The position numbers were made by a program, and so were the translations under genes. From JBHIER01 sp046760705 [NCBI: bacterium] (lineage in GTDB: Bacteria; JBHIER01; G020348925), in the NCBI GenBank assembly GCA_046760705.1, contig JBHIER010000031.1, positions 1 through 13,396 on the forward strand: 13,396 nt of DNA, given 5' to 3'. Below the pieces are notes generated by a model, which did no database searches, was not told the origin of the DNA, and worked only from the letters and a program-made list of their open reading frames with translations. Shown here piece after piece: positions 118 through 13,396 of the stretch. How positions within the stretch are numbered: the stretch's first letter is position 1; each line of letters begins with the position of its first letter.

Positions 118-177
118 TTGGTACTTATTTGTCATTTGGATTTGCTATTGGTACTTATTTGTCATTTGGATTTGCTA
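118..177. repeat. Two perfect tandem copies of a 30-base unit
   Basis: Bases 118-147 and 148-177 are identical 30-mers (beginning TTGGTACTTATTTG). The second copy includes the TAG stop of the HdrC-like gene (177-175), so the duplication begins at the very end of the coding region. No evenly spaced spacers are present, so it is not a CRISPR array. Confidence 0.9.
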
Positions 178-936
178 CAGGTAGTCTCTGTTTTCCGGTG
201 TCCACGACTCATCGGCCATCTCTGGCTCCACTTCGCGCTCGACATACAGTTTCTTCAATTCGTCCACATTGGCCTTCATAAGTTTGTTGAGTGCTTCATT
301 ATATTTCTTCTGTTCGACTTTCTGCACGGCCGCTTGGAGGTGCTCGGCCTTGGGGGCGATGTATTTGCCGTAAAGCCGTCGGCAGAGGATGGCCACATTA
401 TACTGGACCTCTTCGGCCGGGCACCGGGCCGTACAGAGACCGCACATGACACAGTCGAAGGAGAGCTCAGCCACCCTGGCGATGTTTCCCCGAATGGCCT
501 GGGATATGTACTCCATGACCTCAATATCCATGGGACAGCTCCGGGTGCAGGTATTGCAGCCGACACACTTGAACAGCTCTGGATACAAACTGGCCACAAC
601 CGAACCTACGGGCTTCAGTTCATCGACATTGTAGGTCGCTTTGTTGGCCGGGAAGAAGGGAATCTGGGTTAAATGCATGTCGGCTTTGACCACTGTCTGA
701 CAGGCCAACCCGACCTCAATGCGATACGCTCCGGGCATCCGGTACACTGTGCCGCAAGCACCGCAGATGCCACCCCGACACCCACACCCCCGGACCAACT
801 GATAGCCCGCATGCTCCAAGGCCTTTTGGATCGTCAAGCTATCAGGCACCTCGTACCTCTCCCCCATTATGTAAATGGGAACCAATCGTCCTCCAGGAGT
901 CTCAGACTTTTCTCTCTCTTTTACCTTAGTGGCCAT
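175..936 (-). CDS. HdrC-like iron-sulfur protein with N-terminal [2Fe-2S] domain
   Basis: A 253-residue protein. Residues 18-95 form a ferredoxin/SdhB-like [2Fe-2S] domain with the motif CGCRGGICGACG (C51 or C53, C58, C61) and C79. Residues 120-190 hold two [4Fe-4S] motifs, C124, C127, C130, C134 and C162, C165, C168, C172, with the spacing and helical surroundings of HdrC and the fumarate reductase iron-sulfur subunit. The last 55 residues are charged and helical. HdrC carries electrons between HdrA and HdrB; here the added [2Fe-2S] centre gives a longer chain. No membrane segment is seen, so it is cytoplasmic. ATG 936 follows GGAGG (950-946). It is the last gene of the visible cluster, far from hdrB at the other end. 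An SdhB-like role is less likely because no flavoprotein or membrane subunit of that family is nearby. Confidence 0.88.
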   Translation of the reverse strand: MATKVKEREKSETPGGRLVPIYIMGERYEVPDSLTIQKALEHAGYQLVRGCGCRGGICGACGTVYRMPGAYRIEVGLACQTVVKADMHLTQIPFFPANKATYNVDELKPVGSVVASLYPELFKCVGCNTCTRSCPMDIEVMEYISQAIRGNIARVAELSFDCVMCGLCTARCPAEEVQYNVAILCRRLYGKYIAPKAEHLQAAVQKVEQKKYNEALNKLMKANVDELKKLYVEREVEPEMADESWTPENRDYL

Positions 937-1043: not shown

Positions 1044-1769
1044 CTACTTTAGTCTCCTTTCAAGAATAGCAAGCAGGACTTCTGCCAAGTTTATTACCTC
1101 CTCGGCATCCTCTCTTCCAACATGAGCGCTAAAAACATATCTTGCTTGATTTCTCTTGCCGAGAGCCAAACGAAGCCTTCGGCCTAACTCTGTTTTCACT
1201 TCTCCGGTCCTGGCAAACAGGTCTCCAAACCTGTTCATAACGCCCCTGTGGGTGGACGGAAGATCGCCAGGTTTGAAGAGCAAAAGTCCCTTTACAGCAA
1301 GTTCAGCGCCATTGTAAGCCAAATCTACTGCTGCTCGAAAGGCATCGTCTGCCAGGTTCCTTTTGGCATCCTCAACAAAAAGTCTGGCCAGCTCCGCGTA
1401 TCCCTTTTGTTCCTCCTCCTTTATCTCGTTTTCTGACATCGAATAGACCTCCTTTCCTATTTCAAGCGTTCGATAGACAAGCCACGAGGTAGGGAACCGG
1501 AGTTCACTAATAGGAAACAGAAGCGCCTCGACACTCTCACCCGTTTCCCACCAGATATCGGAAGAGACATCATCCAAAAATTTCTCCACTTCTTTCTTAC
1601 TATTTGTAGAGAAAATCAAGAGGTCGATGTCGCTGTCTTCATATGCCTCCTCTCTGAGAACACTTCCAAAAAGGACCATCTTGGCGATATGATCCCCGAA
1701 CTTGCTCTTCAGGACCCGGCGCTTAAATTCGTCTATGGCTTTGTATTTCTTCTCTAATATTTCTTTCAT
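1044..1769 (-). CDS. Nucleotidyltransferase-HEPN fusion protein (MNT-HEPN type)
   Basis: A 241-residue protein unlike its redox neighbours. Residues 25-90 form a minimal nucleotidyltransferase (MNT) domain with the catalytic motif GSVLREEAYEDSDIDLL: G35, S36, D47 and D49, with E81 a possible third metal ligand. Residues 118-238 are a helical HEPN domain of the UPF0332/COG1895 type, with RNQARY (206-211) and a possible Rx5H (R210, H216). In two-gene MNT/HEPN systems the HEPN protein is an RNase-like toxin and the MNT protein neutralises it by AMP transfer; single-chain fusions are known, but their roles are mostly unsettled. The start overlaps the hdrA stop by four bases (ATGA), so it is translated with the redox genes. 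The DNA looks more A/T-rich than its neighbours. It could be a mobile toxin-antitoxin insert or a regulator/modifier of the complex; the sequence does not decide. Confidence 0.85.
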   Translation of the reverse strand: MKEILEKKYKAIDEFKRRVLKSKFGDHIAKMVLFGSVLREEAYEDSDIDLLIFSTNSKKEVEKFLDDVSSDIWWETGESVEALLFPISELRFPTSWLVYRTLEIGKEVYSMSENEIKEEEQKGYAELARLFVEDAKRNLADDAFRAAVDLAYNGAELAVKGLLLFKPGDLPSTHRGVMNRFGDLFARTGEVKTELGRRLRLALGKRNQARYVFSAHVGREDAEEVINLAEVLLAILERRLK

Positions 1770-3478
1770 GGTTTTTCACGAGAAAAAAGACCGATCACTT
1801 TGCTCGCCGCACCACTGGCTTGAGCGACGGCTTCGGGTATATCTTTAGGTCCTTGGGCGCATCCGGCCAAAAAATAGCCAGGAGTGCGGCTTTCGACGGG
1901 TCGAAGCTTGGAATGGGCCTCGGAGAGGAACCCGTCCCCGTCGCTGGGTATGTTCAACTTCCGCAACAGCTCGGCCGTGCCCTCACTGGGCACCATGGCC
2001 ATGGCCAAGACAACCAGATCGGCCGCAATCTCTATCTTCCTTCCAGTCAGGGTATCGGCCCCCCAGACGATGACCTTCCCGTCCTGTTCGAAGACCTTGG
2101 ACACCTTTCCCCTCAAAAAGATAACGTCCTCCTCCTCGGCCGCCCTGTGGTAAAACTCCTCGTATCCCTTTCCTGCTGTCCGCACATCGATGTAGAAGAC
2201 ATAAGGCTGACCATCGTGAACCCGATGCTTGTAGAGCATGGCATGCTTGGTGGTGTACATGCAGCATATCTTGGAGCAGTAAGGCATATTCTTCTCCGGA
2301 TCCCTGGAGCCGGCGCACTGAATAAAGACCACCTCCTTGGGCACCTTCCCGTCGGAAGGCCTCCTCACCTCCCCCCCTGTGGGCCCCGATGCGTAGAGGA
2401 GACGTTCGAAGGCAAAGCCATCGATAACATTCTCAATCTGACCCCCACCGTATTCGCCCAGTTTGACCATGGGATAGAGATCATAACCTGTGGCCACAAC
2501 AATGGCGCCCACCTCCTGCTCGAGGATCTCGTCCTCCTGCTCCCAGCAGATTGCACCCACATCGCAAAATTTCTCGCAGACTTTGCACTTTCCCTTTTGG
2601 AAAAAGATACAATGTTTCCTGTCGATCACCGGCTTGCTGGGTACCGCCTGAGGAAAAGGGGTATAAATGGCCTTGCGCAGGCCCATGAAACGGTCAAATT
2701 CTGACGGAACCTTCTTCGGGCATTTTTCGCTGCACACCCCGCACCCGGTGCATCTGTCCCAATCGACATAAGCCGCCTTTCTCCTTATGGTCACTCTGAA
2801 ATGCCCCATCTGTCCCTTCACATCGTCCACTTCGGAGTAGGTGAGCAATGTGATCTTCGGGTGCTGCCCTGTCTCGACCATCTTCGGGGTGAGGATGCAT
2901 TGGGAACAGTCCAGGGTCGGAAAAGTCTCGGAAAGTTGAATCATGTGCCCCCCGATGGAGGGTTCCCTTTCCACAAGGATGACCTCATACCCGCTGTTAG
3001 CAATATCGAGGGCGGCCTGAATGCCGGCAATTCCTCCGCCGATGACGAGGGCCTTCTTCACCATCGATCGATCAATAGGCAAAGACTGTTCTTGAGAGGC
3101 AAGCTGTTCAACGCGCTCTTTTATGATTTCGACGGCTCTCCCCGTGGCCTCTTCGGAATCGGAGTGGACATAACTGCACCCTTCCCTGATGTCAGCAATC
3201 ACGCATCCCTCTGAAGCCAATCCCGCCGACTCGGCCGCGTTCCGAAAAGTGAGTTCGTGCAAAGGAGGCGAACAGGCGGCCACCACCACACCCTCCAACC
3301 CCTTCTCCTCCATTACTGCCTTCATCACCTTCTGTCCGGCTTCGGAGCACCAGAAATCGTGCGCTGTGGCCACAGAGACCGGGGCCAGTCGACCCACCTC
3401 CCCCACCACCCTCTCCACATCAACCACACCACCGATCTCATTCTGGCAACAACAAATGAATACACCAATATTCTGCAT
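1766..3478 (-). CDS. hdrA: Heterodisulfide reductase subunit A (HdrA), intact single-module form
   Basis: A 570-residue HdrA. Its N-terminal domain begins MQNIGVFICCCQNEIGG, where most HdrA have CHCG. Then follow the FAD motif GGGIAG (147-152), FPTLDCSQCILTPK (186-199), [4Fe-4S] motif 1 (C243, C246, C249, C253), the linker with RKAIY and PFPQAVP, motif 2 (C290, C298, C301, C305), and the C-terminal flavin half with CAGSRD and CCMYTTKHA. It ends at the flavin domain and lacks the two terminal ferredoxin motifs found in many HdrA and in the tandem protein at 5286-7865. HdrA holds the bifurcating FAD and links MvhD-type donors to HdrBC. ATG 3478 fits homologues and has GAAGG upstream; the alternative is GTG 3493, directly after the stop of the FrhB-like gene. 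Its stop overlaps the next start (ATGA). It serves as an internal reference for the split HdrA. Confidence 0.93.
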   Translation of the reverse strand: MQNIGVFICCCQNEIGGVVDVERVVGEVGRLAPVSVATAHDFWCSEAGQKVMKAVMEEKGLEGVVVAACSPPLHELTFRNAAESAGLASEGCVIADIREGCSYVHSDSEEATGRAVEIIKERVEQLASQEQSLPIDRSMVKKALVIGGGIAGIQAALDIANSGYEVILVEREPSIGGHMIQLSETFPTLDCSQCILTPKMVETGQHPKITLLTYSEVDDVKGQMGHFRVTIRRKAAYVDWDRCTGCGVCSEKCPKKVPSEFDRFMGLRKAIYTPFPQAVPSKPVIDRKHCIFFQKGKCKVCEKFCDVGAICWEQEDEILEQEVGAIVVATGYDLYPMVKLGEYGGGQIENVIDGFAFERLLYASGPTGGEVRRPSDGKVPKEVVFIQCAGSRDPEKNMPYCSKICCMYTTKHAMLYKHRVHDGQPYVFYIDVRTAGKGYEEFYHRAAEEEDVIFLRGKVSKVFEQDGKVIVWGADTLTGRKIEIAADLVVLAMAMVPSEGTAELLRKLNIPSDGDGFLSEAHSKLRPVESRTPGYFLAGCAQGPKDIPEAVAQASGAASKVIGLFSREKP

Positions 3479-3493
3479 ACAAATTACCTTCAC

Positions 3494-4576
3494 CTATCTC
3501 GGTTCGAGCTCATCCTCTTTGAACGTGCACACAGGCGGTTCCTCCTCAAGTCTCATCCCAGGCACATAATCGAAGACGGCCTGGACATCCCGGCCCACAT
3601 ACTGGAACAGATCGTATACCGGCAGATCGTTGGGACAACCACTGCTGCACCCACCGCATTCGACGCAGGAGAGGACCATATGGTTTAACCGTGTCAGATG
3701 GTAGAGCAGGGTTTCATAAGGCAGCTTGATGGCCCCTTTTCGCTGAGCCCATTTGAGATACTGATCGGGCTTATGGTCGAAAATATTTGTCAGAAAGACG
3801 CATTCCTTGCAATAGCAGATGGGACATTCTTGCCGGCAGTTGTAACAGCGCGTGCACCGGGCAAATTCGTTCAACAGGTCGGGTATAGATTTGAACCGTT
3901 CCTTCAGTTCGGCCAGAAACTGGTCGCGCAGCCTGGCCTTGTCACCCGCAATTTGAGATACGGTCTGTTCCCGCCCGACCGGGTTTCCTCCTTTTTCAAT
4001 CCCGAGCTGGGCGGCGATCTCGTCGGGGGTCCGCAGGTAGACCTCCTTCTTGAGATCTACCCCGATGAAACCCAGGCTCATGGGCACGCCCTCAGGTACG
4101 GGATAGGGACAGACCTGGCAGGCTCTCCTCAGATTGGCCGTATTTCCGGAAAGTATGCCGGAGAGATACTCCTCTATTTTGAACTCCCCGTTCATCTTCT
4201 CGAATTCGGCCGACTCCACTGTTCCCAAACAATCGACGCCGATGAGAAAAACCCGGTCAAGGTTGGCCTGCTTGAACTTGGCCAGTTCGATCAGGGCCCG
4301 AATCTCGCACGCCCTCAGCACCGCTCCGATCTTCTGTCCCGGATCCCAACTGGTCAAAGAGGAGACCACCTTCGACCCGTTCACCATCAGCACCGGCAGG
4401 AAGGGAGCGGCCCTCTTGATCTGAGACGGATCCTTGACGAGGGTGTGGGCATAACTCCTCCCAGAGAGAACAGCCTGGGGAACGATGAGGGCATCGACGA
4501 TCTTCTTCTCCAACAAGTCTCGAAAGAACTGGTTGAGGGTCTCCGTCAAATTGGAGTCTTTGAGGGGAATGATCAT
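3494..4576 (-). CDS. FrhB/FdhB-like flavin and iron-sulfur protein (F420 hydrogenase/dehydrogenase beta family)
   Basis: A 360-residue protein. The N-terminal 170 residues match the beta subunits of F420-reducing hydrogenase and formate dehydrogenase (VLRACEIRALIELAK near 87-100, VDCLG at 114-118, RACQVCPYPVPEG at 151-163), which hold FAD and exchange electrons with F420 or another two-electron carrier. The C-terminal part has C241, C244, C247, C251, then C254, C256, C259, and C304, C307, C310, C314, enough for two [4Fe-4S] clusters. Having the clusters after the flavin domain is the reverse of classical FrhB. ATG 4576 is preferred over GTG 4600 because AGGAGG lies five bases upstream, directly after the mvhD stop. 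The position between mvhD and hdrA suggests a flavin entry or exit point of an Hdr complex. Whether the partner is F420, NAD(P)H or ferredoxin cannot be seen. Confidence 0.87.
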   Translation of the reverse strand: MIIPLKDSNLTETLNQFFRDLLEKKIVDALIVPQAVLSGRSYAHTLVKDPSQIKRAAPFLPVLMVNGSKVVSSLTSWDPGQKIGAVLRACEIRALIELAKFKQANLDRVFLIGVDCLGTVESAEFEKMNGEFKIEEYLSGILSGNTANLRRACQVCPYPVPEGVPMSLGFIGVDLKKEVYLRTPDEIAAQLGIEKGGNPVGREQTVSQIAGDKARLRDQFLAELKERFKSIPDLLNEFARCTRCYNCRQECPICYCKECVFLTNIFDHKPDQYLKWAQRKGAIKLPYETLLYHLTRLNHMVLSCVECGGCSSGCPNDLPVYDLFQYVGRDVQAVFDYVPGMRLEEEPPVCTFKEDELEPR

Positions 4577-4581
4577 GCGCT

Positions 4582-4587
4582 CCTCCT
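4582..4587 (-). promoter_or_regulatory. Ribosome binding site of the FrhB-like gene
   Basis: AGGAGG directly follows the mvhD TAA and stands five bases before ATG 4576. It supports this start and tight co-translation with mvhD. Confidence 0.75.
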
Positions 4588-5007
4588 TTATATTTCCCAC
4601 ATGGTCTTGAAGGGACTGGGTCCCAATTGTTTCAGTTCTTCAACCATGGTTGTGATTGTGCGGGCAAACTCTCGCCCTTCGCTGGCGCTGATCCATTTGA
4701 GCCGCACCCGCTCATCAGGAATGCCCAAATCTTTCAAGATAGTCTTCAAAATTGTGATGCGCCGCCGCGCCTTGTAATTACCAGACTGGTAATGGCAATC
4801 CCCTGGGTGTCACCCGCCCACCAGAACGCCGTCAGCACCTTCTAAGAGGGATTTCATGATGTAAACGGGATCGACGGCGCCGCTGCACATCAATCTAATA
4901 ATCCGCACATTCGGTGGGTATTGAATTCTGGACGTACCGGCCAAATCTGCCGCCGCGTATGTGCACCAGTTACAGACAAAGGCGATTATTCTCGGCTCGA
5001 ATTCCAT
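4588..5007 (-). CDS. mvhD: MvhD-type [2Fe-2S] subunit with in-frame UGA read as selenocysteine
   Basis: Read through the UGA at 4812-4810, the frame gives a 139-residue protein, full length for MvhD; a plain reading would stop at residue 65. The sequence around the UGA is VLVGG-U-HPGDCHY, and MvhD normally has cysteine at this place, so the UGA replaces a [2Fe-2S] ligand. The other ligands seen are C12 and C15 (FVCNWC), C41 (LMCSG) and C71. After the UGA the match continues with GNYKARRR and an alpha-helical tail to TAA at 4590-4588. The start at 5007 is set by AAAGGAG five bases upstream; ATG 5022 would overlap that site. MvhD links a hydrogenase, formate dehydrogenase or other donor to HdrA. 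Selenocysteine forms are known in methanogen VhuD, BamF and other bacterial MvhD. Automatic annotation would probably call a truncated 65-70-residue gene. Confidence 0.92.
4777..4793 (-). promoter_or_regulatory. Candidate bacterial SECIS hairpin for the mvhD UGA
   Basis: On the coding strand, ATTACCA - GTC - TGGTAAT forms a perfect seven-pair stem with a three-base loop (or a five-base AGUCU loop if the closing pair opens). The loop begins 24 bases after the UGA, in the range of bacterial SECIS elements, and contains the G-U dinucleotide expected for SelB recognition. GCC just before the stem can also pair with GGC five bases after it (bulge UACAA). The bulged U of the E. coli fdhF element is not evident. 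The hairpin lies inside the coding sequence, as is normal in bacteria. Confidence 0.72.
4810..4812 (-). other. UGA selenocysteine codon (residue 66 of MvhD)
   Basis: The codon falls on the conserved cysteine position of the MvhD motif GCHxGDCHY, and strong family similarity continues in the same frame on both sides. This separates recoding from a nonsense mutation. Confidence 0.9.
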
Positions 5008-5012
5008 AATTT

Positions 5013-5019
5013 CTCCTTT
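5013..5019 (-). promoter_or_regulatory. Ribosome binding site of mvhD
   Basis: AAAGGAG lies five bases before ATG 5007 and decides that start over the in-frame ATG at 5022, which is directly next to the site. Confidence 0.7.
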
Positions 5020-5055
5020 CATCGAATAGTGTCTTTACCAGAACGGATGTTTCTC

Positions 5056-5261
5056 TGTCATTCCGAACCTTGTTCTGAAAAATGGTATCCTGAATCCTGT
5101 CCCGGGCCTCGACCCGGGACCGTTTCAGGATCTCCGATTTCGGAATCGATATCCTTGTCTCTACAGGATCGCCCGGAGATTCCTGCATTCGCAGGAATGA
5201 CAAGAGAAAAGGAGATTACGGCTCGAGTTTATCCTGGACTTGTTCCGGGGCCGGAATGACA
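5056..5261. repeat. Palindromic dispersed-repeat (REP/MITE-like) block in the intergenic gap
   Basis: The 264-298-base gap between hdrA and mvhD holds no credible gene. TGTCATTCCG (5056-5065) is matched in inverted orientation by CGGAATGACA (5252-5261), and GGAATGACA recurs at 5194-5202. Inside are a hairpin 5094-5131 (TCCCGGG at 5100-5106 with CCCGGGA at 5113-5119, outer stem ATCCTG/CAGGAT) and a hairpin 5179-5198 (ATTCCTGC / loop ATTC / GCAGGAAT). Such 'TCATTCC...GGAATGA' palindromes are commonly scattered between genes in anaerobic Deltaproteobacteria and similar genomes. There is no T tract, so an intrinsic terminator is not supported. The block may separate two transcription units, but this cannot be decided from the sequence. 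Confidence 0.7.
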
Positions 5262-5285
5262 AATTTGGGCATTTTCGGACAGACA

Positions 5286-7865
5286 TTAAAGAGCCGCATC
5301 GATCATGGCTAAAACCTCTTCGGTTTCGAATCCCTTCTGCTGGGAGACCCCGCTGGGGCAGGCGACAGTACACGCCCCGCAGGCTTGACAGAGCACCTCC
5401 ACCACCTCAGCCACCCTCCTCTCCGGATCCACCTTGCGGGCATCGTAAGGGCAGACCAGTTCGCAGATACCGCACCCGGAGCACCACTTCTCGTTCACCA
5501 TCGGGATTTCGGCTTTGGCCTGGATCTTATCCTTGGACAATATGGTGACAGCCCTGATGGAGGCTCCCTTGGCCTGGGCGATCGATTCCTCAACGGTCCG
5601 GGGCGAATGGGCCAGCCCGCACAGGAACATCCCGTCGGCAGTGAAGTCCAGAGGCCGTATCTTGGCGTGGGCCTCCATGAAAAAGCCGTCTTCCGTCAGA
5701 GGCAGCTTCAGCCTCTGGGCTAACTCCTCGTTGTCCCCATGCACGCCGGCACTGAGGACCAGTAGATCGGGACTAAAGGCCACCTCCCGGCCAACCACCG
5801 GATCGGTGAGTCGAACCCGCAGTCGGCCATCCTCCTCGGACACCTTCGGTTTATCATTCTCATCGTAACGAATGAAGAGCACACCCTTCCGTCTCGCCTC
5901 TAAATAATATTTCTCCCTGAACCCGTAGGTCCGGATGTCGCGGTAGAGAACCACCACCTCGGCTTCGGGATTCAGCTCTTTCAATCGTAGAGCGTTCTTG
6001 ATGGCCTGGCAACAGCAGATACGGCTGCAATAGGGGCGCTCCTCGTCCCTTGAGCCGACGCACTGGATCATGACCACCGTGCGGAGAGACGAGGGACGAA
6101 AGTCGGAAGACGAAAGAGCCTTTTCAAATTCGGTTTGAGTTATCACCTTTGAGTTCTGACCGTACAGGTACTCCTTCGGTTCGTACTCCTTTGCACCTGT
6201 GGCCACAATAACTACGCCGTGGTTCAGTTCAACCGGGTTCTCTTCCTTCTTCAAATAGAGGGTGGTGGTATAGCTCCCCAGATAGCCGGACATCTCCCTC
6301 ACCTCGGCGTCGGTGTAGACGCGGATGAGATCGCGCCGCTCAACCTCCTCAACGGTCTTCCGCAGCAGCTCCTGAGTGTCCTTTCCGTCTATGGTGGAGT
6401 GTATATCGGCCAAATGGCCGCCCAGACGGCTCTCCCTCTCCACGAGATGAACGGCGAACCCCTGCTCGGCCAGGGAAAGGGCAGCTGTCATCCCCGCCAG
6501 TCCTCCACCGATGACCAACCCCTCCTTGTTCAGCTCAAAAGTCTCCTGGTAGATGGGCGAAAGCAGGGCCGCCTTGGATACAGCCATGGCCACGACCTCC
6601 TTGGCCTTCTGGGTGGCTCTCTCCGGCTCGTTCATGTGCACCCAGGAGACGTGTTCCCGGAGACTGGCCATCTCAAATAGATAGGGATTGAGACCCACCT
6701 CCCGAATGGTATCCCGAAAGAGGGGCGCATGTGTCGTCGGCGTGCACGAGGCCACCACCACCCGGGTCAGCTCGTGTCTTTCAATCTCTGACTTGATCTT
6801 CTCCAGAGAATCTTGGGAACATGTGTACAGGTTTTCATCGGCGAAGACGACGTAAGGTAAGGTACGAGCGTGCTCTACCACTGCCGGTACATCGATGAAC
6901 CCACCGATGTTGCGTCCGCACCGACACACGAAGACACCGATGCGCGGATCTTCGTCTACTACCTCTTTCTCCTCAGGATACTCCTTAGATACAGTCAAGG
7001 TCCCTCGCGCACAAGCCAGCAGGCTGGAGGCCTCGGCGGCAGCACTGCTGGCCTCGATAACCGTCTCAGGAATGTCCTTAGGTTCTCCGAAAGCACCGCT
7101 GACAAATATGCCAGACTGAGCGGTCTCTGTAGGGGAAAACCCCTCCTTAAGAGAGAAACCGTACTCATTCAGCTCCACTCCCAATCGCCGGGCCAATTCT
7201 TTGACCTTCTCAGATGGGATGATTCCCGTGGCCAAAACGACCAGATCAAACTCCTCTTCCGCGAAGGTGTGGTCCTCCCGGACATACTTTATCCGCAGGT
7301 TCTTCGACTGCTGCAGTTCGACCACTTTAGAGACCAGACAGCGGATGTACCGAACACCTTGATTCTCCCTGGCCCTGTTGAAGTAACGCTCGAACCCCTT
7401 TCCAAAAGCCCTCATGTCCATGTAGAAGATGGTCGGTTCAATCTCAGCATCATGCTCCTTGGCTATGATGGCCTCTTTGGTCGAGTACATGCAGCAGACG
7501 GATGAACAGTACTCCTGACCACACGTGATGTCCCTCGATCCGACGCAGGAGATGAAAGCAATCCTCTTGGGGTGCTTGCCGTCGGAAGGCCTGAGAACCT
7601 CCCCCTGAGTTGGGCCGGAGGCGCTCAGGATGCGCTCAAACTGCCTGCTTGTGATGACATTCTGATAGATGCCATATCCATATTCGCCTCTCAACTTGGG
7701 ATCAAAAAGATCAAAGCCAGGCCCGAGGATAACAGCACCAACATCGATTTGACTTTCACGCTCCTTCATCGTATAGTCGATGGCATCGGCCTCACAGACC
7801 GTCTCACATATCTGACACTCGTCCTTATTAAAATAGACACAGTGATCTCTATCGATGACCGGTTC
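5286..7865 (-). CDS. hdrA: Tandem HdrA protein: C-terminal half of one HdrA plus a second HdrA module (5' end frame-disrupted)
   Basis: The frame is open from 7865 just after a TAG. The first ATG is at 7769, but starting there would remove the four cysteines of a [4Fe-4S] motif in HCVYFNKDECQICETVC, so the natural protein begins upstream in another frame. Counting from ATG 7769: residues 1-255 match the second half of an HdrA flavin domain (SCVGSRD, CCMYSTKEA, ATGIIPSEK). Residues 275-400 are a new HdrA N-terminal domain (IGVFVCRCGRNIGG). Residues 415-745 form a second flavin module (GGGLAG at 421-426, SRICCCQAI) that lacks the FPTxDCxxC loop and internal ferredoxin. Residues 758-803 carry two terminal [4Fe-4S] motifs (C763, C766, C769, C773; C794, C797, C800, C804). 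HdrA is the flavin-based bifurcating subunit of Hdr complexes. Two flavin modules in one chain could act as an internal dimer. The missing FAD-binding N-terminal half is encoded at 11624-12553. Confidence 0.88.
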   Translation of the reverse strand, partial: EPVIDRDHCVYFNKDECQICETVCEADAIDYTMKERESQIDVGAVILGPGFDLFDPKLRGEYGYGIYQNVITSRQFERILSASGPTQGEVLRPSDGKHPKRIAFISCVGSRDITCGQEYCSSVCCMYSTKEAIIAKEHDAEIEPTIFYMDMRAFGKGFERYFNRARENQGVRYIRCLVSKVVELQQSKNLRIKYVREDHTFAEEEFDLVVLATGIIPSEKVKELARRLGVELNEYGFSLKEGFSPTETAQSGIFVSGAFGEPKDIPETVIEASSAAAEASSLLACARGTLTVSKEYPEEKEVVDEDPRIGVFVCRCGRNIGGFIDVPAVVEHARTLPYVVFADENLYTCSQDSLEKIKSEIERHELTRVVVASCTPTTHAPLFRDTIREVGLNPYLFEMASLREHVSWVHMNEPERATQKAKEVVAMAVSKAALLSPIYQETFELNKEGLVIGGGLAGMTAALSLAEQGFAVHLVERESRLGGHLADIHSTIDGKDTQELLRKTVEEVERRDLIRVYTDAEVREMSGYLGSYTTTLYLKKEENPVELNHGVVIVATGAKEYEPKEYLYGQNSKVITQTEFEKALSSSDFRPSSLRTVVMIQCVGSRDEERPYCSRICCCQAIKNALRLKELNPEAEVVVLYRDIRTYGFREKYYLEARRKGVLFIRYDENDKPKVSEEDGRLRVRLTDPVVGREVAFSPDLLVLSAGVHGDNEELAQRLKLPLTEDGFFMEAHAKIRPLDFTADGMFLCGLAHSPRTVEESIAQAKGASIRAVTILSKDKIQAKAEIPMVNEKWCSGCGICELVCPYDARKVDPERRVAEVVEVLCQACGACTVACPSGVSQQKGFETEEVLAMIDAAL

Positions 7866-7868
7866 CTA
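7849..7868 (-). other. Frame junction between NuoG-like and HdrA reading frames; probable lost linker
   Basis: The NuoG-like frame runs to TAG at 7851-7849, while the HdrA frame is bounded upstream by TAG at 7868-7866 and offers no ATG, GTG or TTG before 7769. The frames differ by one base. In the intact paralogue (1766-3478) sixteen residues, including RKAIY and PFPQAVP, separate the glycine of the linker from PVIDR. Here only one base separates GGA (glycine) from CCG-GTC-ATC-GAT. If the linkers were the same length, 47 bases are missing, which is not a multiple of three. The Shine-Dalgarno-like AAGGAGG at 7877-7871 is not followed by a usable start at normal spacing. Confidence 0.7.
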
Positions 7869-8469
7869 CGCCTCCTTCAAACTCGGAGGCCAGAGGGACG
7901 ATATCTTTCACGCAGAAATCTTGGGCCGAAATAGCGTTTGTGGGACAGATGAAGGCACAGGCCCCGCATCCCATACAGATGGGAGATGTTCTGTCAAAGG
8001 CAGGACCGACTTTCCTTTCATTTCCACGATCGACAAAACCCAGCACGGCCTGCCCCATCCGCTCACGGCACATGCGAACACAGAGGCCACACAGGATACA
8101 GTCGTCCTTCTCCTTTTTCTCTATTCTGGACCGAGTGATGCCGTATTCTCTGGTGAGAGCATTTATCTTCTCCGAATTCGGAGAACGGGCCAATATCAAT
8201 TCCAGCATCATCTTCCGTGTCTTTTGAACCTTCTCTGTATCCGTCTCGACGACGAGACCTTCCTGGGCCGGATACTGACATGAGGCCGCCAGACCTTGTC
8301 TTCCACCAGCGACAATCTCCACCAGACACACTCGACAGGCACCATACGGACTCAGGGCCGCATGGTAGCAGAGCGTAGGAATCTTGATCCCGGCTTTCTC
8401 CGCTGCTTCTAAGACCGTTGTCCCCTCTTCGACCCGAAGTTTCTCTCTGTTGATGGTAATGTCGATCAT
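7849..8469 (-). CDS. NuoG/HydA N-terminal-type [2Fe-2S] + 2x[4Fe-4S] protein, 3' end probably out of frame with HdrA
   Basis: About 206 residues from the ATG at 8469, chosen because MIDITINREK is the usual beginning of this ferredoxin fold; in-frame ATG 8505 and TTG 8523 lie upstream. A plant-type [2Fe-2S] motif is seen (C34, C45, C48, C64), followed by two [4Fe-4S] motifs (C124, C127, C130, C134 and C165, C168, C171, C175). The His-Cys3 cluster of full NuoG is missing. The protein would relay electrons from the NuoE/NuoF unit. Its last residues, VPLASEFEGGVG, resemble the linker after the first ferredoxin cluster in HdrA (VPSEFDRFMG in the paralogue at 1766-3478), not NuoG. Downstream, the HdrA frame reads PVIDRDHC one base out of phase. 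The gene therefore looks like the front of a NuoG-HdrA fusion, interrupted here by a small deletion or a sequence error. Product class is firm; the true 3' end is uncertain. Confidence 0.85.
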   Translation of the reverse strand: MIDITINREKLRVEEGTTVLEAAEKAGIKIPTLCYHAALSPYGACRVCLVEIVAGGRQGLAASCQYPAQEGLVVETDTEKVQKTRKMMLELILARSPNSEKINALTREYGITRSRIEKKEKDDCILCGLCVRMCRERMGQAVLGFVDRGNERKVGPAFDRTSPICMGCGACAFICPTNAISAQDFCVKDIVPLASEFEGGVGTGHR

Positions 8470-8562
8470 TTGCAGGTATCCATATTTACTCTGCGATGAC
8501 TCCATCGAACTTACCGACCTCAATGCATGCGCCTCGTTTGATCTATCCTTTGCTTACGCCGC

Positions 8563-11500
8563 CTATTCCTTCACCTCGAGGTCGCACCTGAGGCAGCGCT
8601 TCGCCTCAGCCACAGCCATTTCCCGAGTGAAGCCCAACTCCACCTCCTTGAAGTTGCCCTCTCTCTCTTCTGTCGGCAAATGAGGCATCTCGATCTTGTG
8701 CAGACCTTCTGTTTCCTCATCTGTCAGCTCGACGGTCTCAACGTCGATGGCTGGGCGAGTCACTTCATACTCTCGCCTGACCGGTTCGCCCCGCAAAAAA
8801 TTGTCTATCATTCGGGCGGCTATCTTGGCCTGACCCATAGCCTCGGCCACCGTTTTGGGTCCAGTGACGACGTCCCCTCCGGCAAAGACTCCCTCCTCGG
8901 CTGTCTGGAACGTTTCGGGATCGACCTCGATTGTGTTCCATTTGGATATCTTCACTCCGTTACCCCGAAGCCATGTGTCCACATCAGGCTCCTGGCTGAT
9001 GGCTGGGATGAGCGTATCTATCTCCACTGTGAATTCTGATCCTTCGATTGGAACGGGCCTCCTGCGACCACTCCGGTCCACGTCCCCCAGCTCCATTCTG
9101 ATGCACTCAACCCCTTTCATCTGTTCGTTCTCCGCCAGTACTCTGATAGGAGCGACGAGGCACTGAATCTTGATTCCCTCCCTGTCCGCCTGCTCGACCT
9201 CCTCCTTGGCCGCCGGCATTTCCCGTCTTGTCCGCCGGTACAGTATTTCGACGTCCTTGCCCAACCGTTTGGCCGTTCTGGCTGCGTCCACAGCCGCATT
9301 TCCCCCGCCGATGACGGCCACCTTCTGGCCGACGGTGATCTCATAGCCTAAGTTGAGACGGCGCAAGAATTCCACGGCATCGATGACGTGTGGGGAGTCC
9401 TCGCCCTCGATATTCATCTTCAGGCCGCGGTGGGCGCCGGTGGCGATATACACCGCCTGGTATTGGACCTTGAGCTCAGTAAAGGAGACGTCCTTTCCTA
9501 CGGTTACGCCGGTTTTTATCTCCACCCCAGTCTTCTTGATGTTCTCGATCTCGTACTCCAGGATCTGCTTAGGCAATCTGTAGTCAGGAATGCCAACGGC
9601 CAGCATTCCTCCTGCAATGGGGAGCGACTCGAAGATGGTGACACCGTACCCTTCAAGGGCGAGGTAGAAGCCGCAGGTGAGTCCAGCCGGGCCGGAGCCG
9701 ATGATGGCTACCTTCTCAGCTCTGGACATTTTCGGCTGGGGTGGACTCCAGGGGCCCTTTTGGCTCTCATAGTCGGCTACGAATCTCTTGAGCCCTCGGA
9801 TCGAAATGGCGTCTTCGCCGCCTTCGCCGGCTCGGCATTTGTCCTCACAAGGAGCAAGGCAGACTCGGCCGCAGATAGCTGGCAGCGGGTTCTCTCTTTT
9901 GACGATCTCTACAGCCTCGTCGAATCTACCCTGAGCAACGAGGCCGATATAGCAAGGAACGTCCTGGCCGAGAGGGCAGATGTGCTGGCAGGGCGAGGAG
10001 ATGATCCCTTTGCAGACCACAGCGGGGCACCTTTTGTACTTGATGTGAGCCTCATACTCGTCCCTGAAGTAGCGGAGTGTGGAAAGCACAGGATTGGGGG
10101 CGGTTGTCCCCAGTCCGCACAGAGAACCAGCCTGAACCGCCTCTGCAAGCTCCTCCAATAAATCTATATCCTCGAGCCGACCTCGCCCTTCACAGATATT
10201 GTTTAAGATCTCGTACATGGCCTCGGTGCCTTCTCGGCAGGAGGTGCACTTCCCGCAGGACTCCCCACGCAGGAAATCGATGAAGTACTTAGCGATATCT
10301 ACCATGCACGTATTCTCATCCATGACGATCATGCCGCCGGACCCCATGATCGACCCCGCCTCAGACAGCTTCTCGTAGTCTATGGGCAGATCGATCAAAC
10401 TTACCGGAATGCATCCGCCAGAGGGGCCCCCGGTTTGAACCGCCTTGAACTTTCTGTCATTCTGAATACCGTCCCCGATGTCGAAGACCATCTCCTTCAA
10501 CGTAATCCCCATGGGTACTTCCACCAGGCCAGTATTTTTGACCTTTCCTACAAGGGAAAACACCTTTGTCCCTTTGCTGGTTTCGGTCCCGATCTCGGCG
10601 TACCAACCTGCTCCGTTTAGGATGATCTGCGGCACAGTTGCCCAGGTCTCCACATTGTTGATATTAGTGGGTCTGTTCCAGAGTCCGCTCTCGGCGGGAA
10701 ACGGTGGTCTTAACCTGGGCTCCGGCGATCTTCCTTCCAACGATGCGATCAACGAAGTCTCCTCACCACAGACAAAGGCGCCCGCCCCCCGGAACACGGA
10801 GATATCAAAATCGAAGCCTGTGCCCAGAATATCCTTTCCCAAAAGACCGCTCTCCCTGGCCTGCCCGAGAGCCAAGTTGATCTGCTTCAGCGCCAGGGGA
10901 TATTCGCTCCTCAGATAGATGAATCCATGGGAAGCACCGATGGCCTTCGCCCCGATGATCATCCCCTCCAAGACTGCATGTGGATCCGACTCGATAATGG
11001 ATCGATCCATGTAAGCACCTGGATCCCCTTCGTCACCATTGCATATAATATACTTTATATTGCCTCTCGATTTTCGGCACAATTCCCATTTCTTACCGGT
11101 CAAGAAGCCTGCTCCGCCTCTTCCGCGCAGTCCAGAATCTTTAATCTCCTGAATGATCTCTTGGGGAGACATTCGAGTCAGCGCTTTGATCAATGCCTTG
11201 TACCCATCTCTGGCAATGTAGTATTCTATCTTCCCAGGGTCGATGAGCCCTCGATTTCTCAGGACGATGGGGCGCTGTTTGCCGAAGAATCCGGCCTCGC
11301 TCGCCTCGGGAAGGATATACTCCTCGACGATCTTTCCTTCCATAATATGTCCCTTGACGATCTTGCGGATCTTCTCTTCGGTAAGGTTCACATATTTGAC
11401 CGGAGCCTCCCCCTTTCGCTCCACGGTGACCATGGGTTCACAACTGCAGAGTCCGGCGCAACCGGAAATTATCACCCTAATCCCATTTTCCATGTTCTTT

Positions 11501-11664
11501 TCCAATTCGGAGAACACGGCATTCTTTATGTTCCTAGCTCCCGCCGCAATACCGCAAGTACCCATATGGATGGTGATCTTTGCCCTGTCTCCGACTCCCC
11601 AGGACATTTTTCTTCTCTCTATCTCAGCGATCTTTTCCAGATCTTCTGGCTTCAACTTCGGCAT
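8563..11664 (-). CDS. NuoF/HydB-type NADH-binding subunit fused to GltD/NfnB-like NAD(P)H:FAD oxidoreductase
   Basis: A 1033-residue fusion. Residues 25-110 form a thioredoxin-like [2Fe-2S] domain (MGTCGIAAGA with C37; C69, C73, C75), as in HydB/HymB. Residues about 130-545 are NuoF: FMN motif GRGGAGF (181-187), NGDEGDPGAYMDR (209-221), and the [4Fe-4S] ligands C470, C473, C476 and C516. Residues about 555-965 resemble the small subunit of glutamate synthase and NfnB: cysteine-rich start (C559, C563, C571, C598, C602, C606, C610), FAD motif GSGPAGL (656-662), NAD(P) motif GGGNAA (786-791) followed by YRRTRREMPA, typical of NADPH-preferring members, and FAGGD near 927-931. The tail has C1024 and C1027. 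The first domains oxidise or form NADH via FMN; the GltD part adds a second flavin and NAD(P)H site. The far upstream start fits homologues, which have a short charged lead-in, although it overlaps the previous gene by 41 bases; ATG at 11607 is the alternative. Confidence 0.93.
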   Translation of the reverse strand: MPKLKPEDLEKIAEIERRKMSWGVGDRAKITIHMGTCGIAAGARNIKNAVFSELEKNMENGIRVIISGCAGLCSCEPMVTVERKGEAPVKYVNLTEEKIRKIVKGHIMEGKIVEEYILPEASEAGFFGKQRPIVLRNRGLIDPGKIEYYIARDGYKALIKALTRMSPQEIIQEIKDSGLRGRGGAGFLTGKKWELCRKSRGNIKYIICNGDEGDPGAYMDRSIIESDPHAVLEGMIIGAKAIGASHGFIYLRSEYPLALKQINLALGQARESGLLGKDILGTGFDFDISVFRGAGAFVCGEETSLIASLEGRSPEPRLRPPFPAESGLWNRPTNINNVETWATVPQIILNGAGWYAEIGTETSKGTKVFSLVGKVKNTGLVEVPMGITLKEMVFDIGDGIQNDRKFKAVQTGGPSGGCIPVSLIDLPIDYEKLSEAGSIMGSGGMIVMDENTCMVDIAKYFIDFLRGESCGKCTSCREGTEAMYEILNNICEGRGRLEDIDLLEELAEAVQAGSLCGLGTTAPNPVLSTLRYFRDEYEAHIKYKRCPAVVCKGIISSPCQHICPLGQDVPCYIGLVAQGRFDEAVEIVKRENPLPAICGRVCLAPCEDKCRAGEGGEDAISIRGLKRFVADYESQKGPWSPPQPKMSRAEKVAIIGSGPAGLTCGFYLALEGYGVTIFESLPIAGGMLAVGIPDYRLPKQILEYEIENIKKTGVEIKTGVTVGKDVSFTELKVQYQAVYIATGAHRGLKMNIEGEDSPHVIDAVEFLRRLNLGYEITVGQKVAVIGGGNAAVDAARTAKRLGKDVEILYRRTRREMPAAKEEVEQADREGIKIQCLVAPIRVLAENEQMKGVECIRMELGDVDRSGRRRPVPIEGSEFTVEIDTLIPAISQEPDVDTWLRGNGVKISKWNTIEVDPETFQTAEEGVFAGGDVVTGPKTVAEAMGQAKIAARMIDNFLRGEPVRREYEVTRPAIDVETVELTDEETEGLHKIEMPHLPTEEREGNFKEVELGFTREMAVAEAKRCLRCDLEVKE

Positions 11665-12553
11665 ATTCGACTTCGACCTCTCTTCTATATTTCTTCAGGA
11701 TACCCGATATTTTGGTCTGGGTTACCCCTCCATAGACATCCTCACCCACTGTCATGACGGGTGCCAGGCCGCAGCAGCCAAGGCATCTCACGGCCTCGAG
11801 GCTAAAAAGCTTGTCCTGCGTGGTCTCTCCTGTCTTGATACCAAGCTCCCGCTCCAAGGCATAGTGGGTCCTGGAGGAACCCTTGACATGGCAGGCGGTT
11901 CCCAGGCAGACCTGGATCGTATACTTTCCTCGCGGAGTGAGGCTGAAGGCGTTGTAGAACGTGGCAATATTATAGACATGACTCAAAGGGATGTCCAGTC
12001 TAATGGCGACGAATTTTAACAGGTCTTCAGGGAGATAGTAGTATGCATCATTGATCTCTTGCAAAATGGGCACCAGAGCACCTTCCTGCTCTTTGTAGGC
12101 TTCGAGTATCTGGGTAACCTTCTCCCGGTCTTTCTCTTCCAACATGGGTTCTGGAAAGTGTTCCTGTTCAAAGTGAGGCCGATTCCTCACTGGACATTGA
12201 GCCACGCATTGGCCGCAACCAGTGCACTTATCAATATCCACGTACCTGGGTCTGTTCACCAGCTTGACCGAGAAATTCCCTGGCTCTCCCCGGATCGACT
12301 CCACATCCGACCAGGTGATGATCTCGATGTTCAGATGGCGGCCGCACTCCACCAGCTTGGGGGCCATGATGCACATGGCGCAGTCGTTGGTGGGAAAGGT
12401 CTTGTCCAGAGCGGCCATGGTTCCGCCGATGGCCGAGGAACTGTCCAATAGGTAGACCTTAAATCCCGATTCGGCCAGATCGAGGGCCGACTGCATCCCT
12501 CCGATGCCGCCCCCTATGACAAGCACCGACCCGATGGTCTTCTTCTCATTCAT
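11624..12553 (-). CDS. HdrA N-terminal half fused to NuoE-type [2Fe-2S] subunit
   Basis: A 309-residue protein with two parts. Residues 8-122 match the FAD-binding start of HdrA: dinucleotide motif GGGIGG (14-19), the conserved FPTNDCAMC loop (C58, C61), and one [4Fe-4S] motif (C110, C113, C116, C120) ending in CPV. The HdrA similarity stops there, so the rest of the flavin domain is absent. From about residue 137 to 290 it is a NuoE/HydC-type thioredoxin-like domain, with the helical lead-in containing YYYLPEDLLKFVA and the four [2Fe-2S] ligands C216, C221, C257 and C261. NuoE carries electrons beside the NADH-oxidising NuoF, which is the next gene. The start overlaps the hdrB stop by ATGA, and the 3' end overlaps the nuoF-like start by 41 bases. 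The HdrA half alone is unlikely to hold FAD unless it pairs with the C-terminal half encoded at 5286-7865. Confidence 0.9.
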   Translation of the reverse strand: MNEKKTIGSVLVIGGGIGGMQSALDLAESGFKVYLLDSSSAIGGTMAALDKTFPTNDCAMCIMAPKLVECGRHLNIEIITWSDVESIRGEPGNFSVKLVNRPRYVDIDKCTGCGQCVAQCPVRNRPHFEQEHFPEPMLEEKDREKVTQILEAYKEQEGALVPILQEINDAYYYLPEDLLKFVAIRLDIPLSHVYNIATFYNAFSLTPRGKYTIQVCLGTACHVKGSSRTHYALERELGIKTGETTQDKLFSLEAVRCLGCCGLAPVMTVGEDVYGGVTQTKISGILKKYRREVEVEYAEVEARRSGKDR

Positions 12554-13396
12554 GATAGCAGTTGTAACGATTTCAACAAAGGTGTTGCATCAATCAAATG
12601 TTTCTTCATCCAATCTTCACTCTCTTTCAGACCGAAGGCTACACCGAGAAGCTCGGTGAAATAGAGGACCGGAAACTGGCCGTCGGTCTGGCGCATCTCC
12701 AGATTTTCCAGGCACAGCGGGCAGAGGGTGACGATGGCCTCGGCCCCGGCCTCTTTGGCCATATCAACGATACCGTCAACCAGGCTTTTGACGATGTCGT
12801 CCCTGGTCAATGACAGACTCCCCCCGCAGCATTCCGTCTTATAGGACCAGTTGAGCACCTCGGCTCCGACGGCCTCCATGAGTTCATCCAGACTGTGCGG
12901 GTGTTCGGGATCGTCAAAATGGGTCACCCTCGCTGGCCTGACAAGAAGGCACCCGTAGTAGCAGACGACTTTAAGGCCGGTAAGAGGTTTCACTACCTTC
13001 GACTTGACTGTCTCCAGGCCGACACGATCGGTGATCAGCTCCACAAGGTTGAGAATCTGGACCGTCCCCACATAATCGTAGTCGAGGAGTTCCTTCATCT
13101 GATCCCTGACGCTTTCCTCCTCCTTTAAAGCGTGCTCGGCCACCTTGAGTCGATTGTAGCAGGCCGCACAGGGCACGGCCACGTCCAGACCCTCTCGTTC
13201 GGCGAGCTTCAGGGTGTGGGCTGGCAGACCGATGTTGAGGATCTCATCCAGGCTGTGGCCTGAGGAGGCCCCGCAGCAAATCCAGTCGGGAAGCTCCTTC
13301 AGCTCGATCTCCAGCTCCGCGCAGACGGCCTGAGTCGAAGCATCGTATTCCTTTGAGGTCCCGTGAAGGGAGCAGCCGGGATAGTATGAATACGTC
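12550..13396 (-). CDS. hdrB: Heterodisulfide reductase subunit B (HdrB), 5' end cut by the window edge
   Basis: The frame is open from base 13395 and 281 residues are visible. The first ones read TYSYYPGCSLHG, the usual HdrB beginning, so only one or a few residues are missing. Two CCG domains are seen. The first has C8, C40-C41 and C76-x2-C79; the second has C145/C149, C189-C190 and C225-x2-C228. In archaeal HdrB these domains bind two non-cubane [4Fe-4S] clusters that reduce the CoM-S-S-CoB disulfide. In bacteria the substrate is usually unknown, so the role here is a thiol/disulfide or other two-electron site. The length is normal for HdrB (about 280-300 residues). The stop overlaps the next start by four bases (ATGA), which indicates translational coupling. 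Its usual partner HdrC is not adjacent; an HdrC-like protein is the last gene of the window. Family assignment is firm and the substrate is open. Confidence 0.93.
   Translation of the reverse strand, partial: TYSYYPGCSLHGTSKEYDASTQAVCAELEIELKELPDWICCGASSGHSLDEILNIGLPAHTLKLAEREGLDVAVPCAACYNRLKVAEHALKEEESVRDQMKELLDYDYVGTVQILNLVELITDRVGLETVKSKVVKPLTGLKVVCYYGCLLVRPARVTHFDDPEHPHSLDELMEAVGAEVLNWSYKTECCGGSLSLTRDDIVKSLVDGIVDMAKEAGAEAIVTLCPLCLENLEMRQTDGQFPVLYFTELLGVAFGLKESEDWMKKHLIDATPLLKSLQLLS

Follow-up and report, generated by a model that had tools for sequence, protein, structure and literature searches.

An HdrA divided between two chains within its inserted ferredoxin domain and associated with NuoE and NuoG

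Contig JBHIER010000031.1 of GenBank assembly GCA_046760705.1 (JBHIER01 sp046760705), a stretch of 13,396 nucleotides that is here called the window, encodes an HdrA that is cut directly after the first motif of its inserted ferredoxin domain (CTGCGQCVAQCP), with the N-terminal part, HdrA(N), joined to NuoE and the C-terminal part, HdrA(C), lying behind NuoG. All parts are on the minus strand where a reading of the sequence alone, hereafter the sequence-only reading, had placed them, in the order HdrB, HdrA(N)-NuoE, NuoF-GltD, NuoG, and from HdrA(C) and a second HdrA-like unit (HdrA') onward. The arrangement is probably that of a trans-assembled HdrA whose composite ferredoxin domain would be wired to a NuoEFG/Bfu module, with NAD(P)H-coupled electron bifurcation or confurcation as its function.

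HdrA(N)-NuoE, a fusion of 309 aa identified by profile matches and alignments A1 and A4, is encoded at 11624..12553; its HdrA sequence ends with CTGCGQCVAQCPV, and NuoE comes next. Positions 139-263 of the NCBIfam HdrA2 profile match residues 7-130 (1e-46) and the Pfam profile 2Fe-2S_thioredx (PF01257) matches residues 147-290 (6e-50), which bears out the proposal of the sequence-only reading that NuoE carries the N-terminal half of HdrA up to the first [4Fe-4S] motif. That motif (C110, C113, C116 and C120; 12194..12226) is immediately followed by the cut, because the intact HdrA of the window reads CTGCGVCSEKCP-KKVPSEFDRFMGLRKAIYTPFPQAVPSKPVIDRKHC across the corresponding stretch, with motif and linker continuous there. 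The thioredoxin-like, [2Fe-2S] NuoE domain occupies 11681..12136, and its four cysteines are invariant in alignment A4. When matched to a solved HdrA (8rvu), the window N half covers residues 153-273 and the C half of the split locus L135 covers 271-654; the two meet at 271-273, so that the complementarity claimed for the halves holds to the residue. All four cysteines of motif 1 are invariant in 46/46 aligned N halves, and the GxGxxG glycines of the flavin adenine dinucleotide (FAD) Rossmann motif, which for the split HdrA unit is found on the N half only, are retained by 40/42 split N halves, the other two having a gap at those columns. Neither in the window nor in relatives with both halves does one polypeptide carry the whole FAD domain; the inserted ferredoxin domain has its two cluster motifs, but on two chains.

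The complementary sequence follows NuoG, a short protein (7849..8469, ATG start; relatives in alignments A2 and A3) in which domain profiles detect a [2Fe-2S] and two [4Fe-4S] motifs before the start of the HdrA linker (VPLASEFEGGVG), and whose open reading frame ends in VPLASEFEGGVGTGHR. The linker and the second motif (PVIDRDHC...CQICETVC) are located after NuoG; the latter, a [4Fe-4S] motif with the sequence HCVYFNKDECQICETVC, belongs to the inserted ferredoxin domain and lies at 7794..7841 within HdrA(C) (7044..7862), which also contains the rest of the FAD domain. The frame 5286-7862 matches HdrA2 positions 284-562 with its residues 2-284 and continues in frame into HdrA' (5286..7007), which has its own N-terminal part and a C-terminal ferredoxin domain. 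The window NuoG frame stops at 7849, and HdrA(C) follows in a different one, where a stop codon closely precedes PVIDRDHC; the linker is 47 nt shorter than in locus L001, where the frame reads through, and this gap, at 7858..7866, would be either a real mutation or an assembly fault. Thus the earlier statement that HdrA resumes after NuoG at the linker stands for the linker and motif 2, but the window has NuoG and HdrA(C) in separate frames. Elsewhere they share one: NuoG reads on into HdrA(C) in 45/47 distinct split-locus NuoG frames (L183 and L184 being left out as repeats of L004 and L002), with the window and L136, at a contig edge, as the exceptions. The four cysteines of motif 2 are invariant in 28/28 aligned C halves of other loci, an alignment that does not include the window, and equivalents of E356 and K409 of Methanothermococcus thermolithotrophicus HdrA, mapped through an alignment offset, are present in 42/42 split C halves, window included. 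Roles of these two residues near FAD N5 are described in passages of PMC12054007.

The fusions recur widely. Scanning species genomes for the fusion protein left 78 loci, seven of which match both HdrA(N) and NuoE; the two parts share a frame in six of these, while L029 has them in different frames. With an N-fusion profile (E<=1e-85; only some candidates per genome were scored in the larger groups, which makes the count a lower bound), the HdrA(N)-NuoE fusion sought by the sequence-only reading was found in at least 45/491 genomes of seven phylum-level groups (3/247, 5/8, 6/17, 22/147, 1/44, 1/9 and 7/19), a figure that is not an unbiased frequency because the groups were picked through seven seed genomes with known hits, themselves counted among the 45. 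Three of these genomes carry it on contigs longer than 2.6 Mb (G353, G365 and G382), and in G071 (locus L151) a stop separates HdrA(N) from NuoE, which are neighbouring genes there. When three candidates from each genome were scored with a NuoG-HdrA(C) profile (E<=1e-145), the C fusion was detected in 2/400 genomes of the phylum of L008 (Anaerolineales) and in 20/395 of the phylum of L051 (Desulfosarcina), and the arrangement is thus present in nine phylum-level groups, two of them known only through the C fusion. In a literature search, no description of a split HdrA joined to NuoE and NuoG was found among the titles, opening parts of abstracts and passages covered, in keeping with the sequence-only reading, which knew of none.

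The two fusions also travel together. Among 80 genomes searched for NuoG-HdrA(C), with matches counted if they start at profile position 14 or earlier, it is present in 42/45 genomes with the N fusion versus 1/35 without (G481), counts that are uncorrected for relatedness between genomes. On whether the C fusion always accompanies the N fusion, the answer is therefore nearly so: two of the three exceptions, G257 and G490, end at contig edges, and the third, G401, is returned to below. For the 20 Desulfobacterota with the C fusion, a reading of individual match rows divides them into 14 with a match spanning HdrA(N) and NuoE, several of these with internal stop codons, and six with a short HdrA(N) frame, which in 5/6 is on the contig of the C fusion. 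In G353 (L165 and L242) a 2.85-Mb contig carries the halves on opposite strands at a distance of about 80 kb, and a truncated NuoF stands beside the N half. Pairwise distances of N halves and C halves correlate with r=0.80 over 42 split rows, with 0/2000 permutations as high; the corresponding values are 0.83 for intact HdrA and 0.86 for HdrA with an inserted GltD.

A sequence or assembly artefact, or a decaying gene whose halves are fragments and whose frame break marks lost function, would account for a window that lacks 47 nt of linker and is out of frame, and for the truncated NuoF of L165. For the family, however, this reading is rejected by the recurrence of both fusions across genomes, by the read-through NuoG frames with their invariant cluster ligands, and by the co-occurrence of the halves, and we regard it as highly improbable.

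It is conceivable instead that the last ferredoxin motif of NuoG, which relative to the linker occupies the position expected of HdrA motif 1, has replaced motif 1, such that HdrA(C) folds with NuoG alone and HdrA(N) on NuoE serves as a tether or as a separate flavin or cluster carrier. The C chains in alignment A3 have some resemblance to such a protein, as they read NuoG CxxCGACxxxCP, linker, motif 2, which is close to the order of an intact HdrA. In that case nothing would preserve motif 1 and GxGxxG, but every aligned N half has an unchanged motif 1; moreover, the NuoG motif has a partner motif of its own, in a ferredoxin domain with eight invariant cysteines, this HdrA unit has its FAD Rossmann motif nowhere but on the N half, and the halves co-diverge almost as intact HdrA does. 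A takeover by NuoG is accordingly viewed as distinctly unlikely. By its [2Fe-2S] and two [4Fe-4S] motifs, and with no ligands of cluster A3 seen by eye, we take the window NuoG to be of the BfuA kind termed Type 2. This cluster naming (A3, Type 2) is that found in passages of PMC9304861.

Predicted structures are consistent with these domain assignments. The AlphaFold2 model of HdrA(N)-NuoE has a mean predicted local distance difference test score (pLDDT) of 83, falling below 50 at residues 1-3, 43-50 and 122-127, and that of L135 NuoG-HdrA(C) a mean of 80, with values below 50 at 205-216 and 584-593. Folded apart, both halves of the inserted ferredoxin domain have low block means (49-59 for N chain 101-130, 48-68 for C chain 191-260), which speaks for a trans-assembled HdrA, with a reservation given below. 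In the L135 model, the part beginning at about residue 166-191 is matched by HdrA chains (Z 26.8-27.6) and the stretch of about 1-240 by NuoG-type chains, and residues 140-298 of the N-half model match the NuoE-type chain 9mqx_C (Z 18.0, root-mean-square deviation 4.6, 159 aligned). Only NuoE-type chains are among the best 50 matches of the N-half model listed by Foldseek and by VIA, so these lists are uninformative on the HdrA(N) part, which is covered by the sequence match to 8rvu.

Split HdrAs come in two classes. In class A, to which the window belongs, the HdrA N-terminal domain is absent and the C chain, of about 1100 aa, includes a second HdrA unit; in class B the N chain of about 430 aa retains the N-terminal domain and the C chain of about 595 aa has a single HdrA end. 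Attachment to NuoE is optional, as a free-standing HdrA(N) of about 130 aa, which extends 7-9 residues past the CP of motif 1, is found in several Desulfobacterota loci (L232-L236), a separate HdrA(N) gene of 293 aa is present in L151, L240 and L243, and HdrA(N) lies between NuoF and NuoG in L239. The idea that the NuoE fusion is essential is rejected on account of the free-standing genes. The HdrA(N) genes of L232-L236 have an in-frame TGA where a cysteine is expected, in TNDCAMUIISP, and in L236 a second TGA is taken as the stop; judged from the reading frames, the first is probably a selenocysteine codon at an HdrA cysteine position. NuoG-HdrA(C) is the common element of the loci and the NuoE fusion a variant, and no HdrA(C) half away from NuoG was found in the loci examined, many of which had been selected for that fusion. 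Of the physical binding of both NuoE and NuoG to HdrA that the sequence-only reading proposed, the NuoG part is therefore upheld by the 45 read-through frames, the broken one of the window apart, while a NuoE fusion is not required. This variability gives some room to a reading in which the NuoE and NuoG tethers only keep the Nuo module near an HdrA that still uses soluble ferredoxin, with the cut itself neutral: the NuoE fusion is dispensable, and the N half can be upstream of NuoE or between NuoF and NuoG. Set against it is the constancy of the junction, since all 14 split loci displayed are cut after motif 1 and have NuoG on the ferredoxin side of HdrA(C), save for the broken frame of the window. 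We think tethering of this sort unlikely, and prefer a composite domain in electronic contact with the Nuo module.

A Gemmatimonadota chromosome (L006) carries the window's operon, minus one gene, with a single HdrA of 1489 aa organized as HdrA(N)-GltD-HdrA(C)-HdrA'. Identity to the window is 80% for the N part, 39% for GltD, 69% for the C part and 78-86% for HdrA', and for other genes 87% (HdrB), 74% (HdrC-like), 83-84% (HdrA) and 84% (iron-sulfur protein). Because this matching operon has one continuous hdrA, a Nuo block lying inside an hdrA is the natural reading of the window. A complete hdrA in place of either half, which the sequence-only reading had counted against itself, does exist in L006, but it reads as the one-chain counterpart of the split gene. 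GltD in L006 enters after the linker and the Nuo cut falls before it, about 30 residues apart in one inter-motif loop. Single-chain HdrAs with an inserted GltD are common among the loci of the genome scan and account for 43 rows, including L006, L008 and L015 (Chloroflexi, WOR-3, Spirochaetes, Gemmatimonadota, Desulfosarcina and others), and so extend well beyond the nine archaeal type III sequences given in the passages of PMC12054007.

Trees complicate a single insertion. In both HdrA trees the window, L001 and L002 stand beside L006 (support 100 and 99). Tests made on 70 of 160 rows, hand-picked after the first tree had been viewed, reject a single clade for the split HdrAs as a whole (p=0.0002) and for class B alone (p=1.35e-05) but not for class A alone (p=0.074). 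One simple insertion event is therefore not the explanation. The NuoG tree (178 columns, many weak branches) is compatible with a single origin of the HdrA-fused NuoGs, while the HdrA halves belong to several families, so that the cassette may have passed from one HdrA family to another. The NuoG and HdrA trees would both be accounted for if a Nuo cassette had recombined into different HdrAs; repeated splitting or re-joining is a possible alternative. The view that an NADH-dehydrogenase module was inserted into hdrA is thus supported by the continuous hdrA of L006, but not as a single event, and the L006 gene itself carries a GltD insert.

The window NuoF (8563..11664, by domain profiles) consists of an N-terminal thioredoxin-like region, NuoF proper and a C-terminal GltD (Fer4_20 and pyridine nucleotide oxidoreductase; about 8566-10002). 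NuoF-GltD is found in 10/53 split-locus NuoFs, the other 43 having two CxxCxxCxxxC motifs instead. The window GltD has GGGNAA followed by YRRTRRE, and its GxGxxA motif would fit NADP(H) by a rule quoted in passages of PMC12054007. Derivation of this GltD as a leftover of an L006-like one-chain HdrA is unsupported: it is nearest to the GltDs of other NuoF-GltD proteins (68% identity to that of L152) and only 39% identical to the L006 GltD, and GltD enters HdrA about 30 residues downstream of the place where the Nuo cut falls.

These features suggest how a trans-assembled HdrA would work. An HdrA whose inserted ferredoxin domain is divided between its two cluster motifs would be restored by pairing, the N chain, NuoE-fused here and free in some relatives, bringing the FAD Rossmann motif and motif 1, and the C chain behind NuoG supplying the linker and motif 2 together with what remains of the FAD pocket. 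The paired chains would place the last NuoG [4Fe-4S] cluster beside the composite HdrA ferredoxin domain. Electrons could then pass from NAD(P)H to the flavin mononucleotide of NuoF (plus GltD in the window), through the NuoE and NuoG clusters to the composite domain and on to the HdrA FAD, from which HdrB/HdrC would be the high-potential partner and HdrA' or ferredoxin the low-potential one; the direction may reverse. In ordinary 2[4Fe-4S] ferredoxin domains the fourth cysteine of each motif serves the other cluster. With the fourth cysteine so swapped between motifs, both clusters would be ligated across chains. A fuller proposal, to which we give an even chance, is that the FAD site and two [4Fe-4S] clusters are each made from two polypeptides (three cysteines plus one), with a NuoEFG cassette threaded through the HdrA ferredoxin loop and exchanged among HdrA families as a modular NAD(P)H plug.

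Several observations weigh against this scheme, beyond the choice of genome groups and the uncorrected relatedness already mentioned. The copy in the window is itself out of frame. In G401, which has the N fusion and 2.4 kb of contig after NuoF, no C fusion was found; in G481, conversely, the C fusion is present and a search at E<=1e-45 gave no N half. In L142, L144 and L171, NuoG-HdrA(C) comes directly after HdrA(N)-NuoE, with no NuoF between the halves or in the fetched stretch. The HdrA tree does not show a single optimised design from one ancestor. The low model confidence of the separately folded half-domains may have no other cause than the shallowness of the alignments (46 and 28 rows) or the absence of cofactors. 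Finally, although the inserted ferredoxin domain is an electron port of HdrA in passages of PMC12350162 and PMC9012536, in solved complexes it is regarded as the anticipated exit from HdrA to ferredoxin, and not as an entry for NADH, according to those of PMC12350162. If the domain is such an exit, the Nuo module may take the place of ferredoxin here, a replacement that PMC12054007 proposed for GltD.

The remaining window genes, all on the minus strand, belong largely to the same operon. An HdrB-type subunit with two CCG domains (Pfam CCG, 5e-22) reads in from the window edge at 12550..13395. Beyond HdrA' are an iron-sulfur protein termed HdrC-like (3494..4600; counterpart at 14859-15950 in L006), the intact single-chain HdrA of 575 aa (1766..3493; phmmer match to 8rvu residues 13-568, 3e-170), and an iron-sulfur protein with 2Fe-2S and two 4Fe-4S motifs in a probable HdrC role (175..936; counterpart at 17436-18209 in L006). 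Between the last two sits a fused nucleotidyltransferase-HEPN protein (1044-1769, by domain profiles), the gene missing from L006; it looks inserted into the operon, because the two genes flanking it adjoin in L006. The stretch 4640-5285 has no gene match, and one of its open reading frames reads IPAFAGMT-like text; it may resemble dispersed repeats.

The significance of the arrangement lies in a Nuo module covalently attached to the inserted ferredoxin domain of HdrA, a contact marked by evolution in nine phylum-level groups. If the proposal is right, the HdrA flavin site forms only on assembly of two chains, and a natural split flavoenzyme with mixable halves would provide an experimental handle. 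Of known systems, the single-chain HdrA of HdrABC (5ODC, 8RVU) shares domain order, GxGxxG, the E356/K409 equivalents, both cluster motifs and the C-terminal ferredoxin domain, and differs in being whole, whereas the split HdrA is in two chains cut inside the inserted ferredoxin domain. Bfu/NuoEFG modules, above all that of Bam-Bfu, place homologues of NuoE, NuoF and a short NuoG beside an HdrA module (passages of PMC9304861), and it could be argued that the window encodes a known Bam-type assembly, HdrA with NuoEFG-like BamGHI, in which HdrA is merely encoded in two pieces and no new wiring exists. However, no tungsten-enzyme (BamB) match was obtained in the nine window proteins scanned, the genomes not having been searched for BamBC; and in the same passages the BfuABC homologues are separate subunits (I, H and G) of a complex with eight subunits, unfused to HdrA, unlike NuoG in nearly all split loci. 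A mere Bam-type assembly thus seems quite improbable. The window also differs from the Bfu family in a NuoF that ends in GltD instead of the two C-terminal [4Fe-4S] motifs of BfuB. Type II HdrA, with two thioredoxin-reductase domains in passages of PMC12054007, resembles the class A C chain with its HdrA(C) and second HdrA unit, except that the first unit of the split HdrA is completed by another chain. GltD-inserted HdrA appears as type III in archaea in the same source and as HdrA-NfnB in ANME-1 in passages of PMC9012536. In type III, too, the inter-motif loop of HdrA receives an NAD(P)H module, but GltD comes in behind the linker of an unbroken chain, whereas the split HdrA is cut before the linker with NuoE and NuoG attached. 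The window has its GltD on NuoF, unlike L006 and 42 other rows, where it is inside HdrA. The split HdrA is read as a new form of HdrA, near the published GltD-inserted type III.

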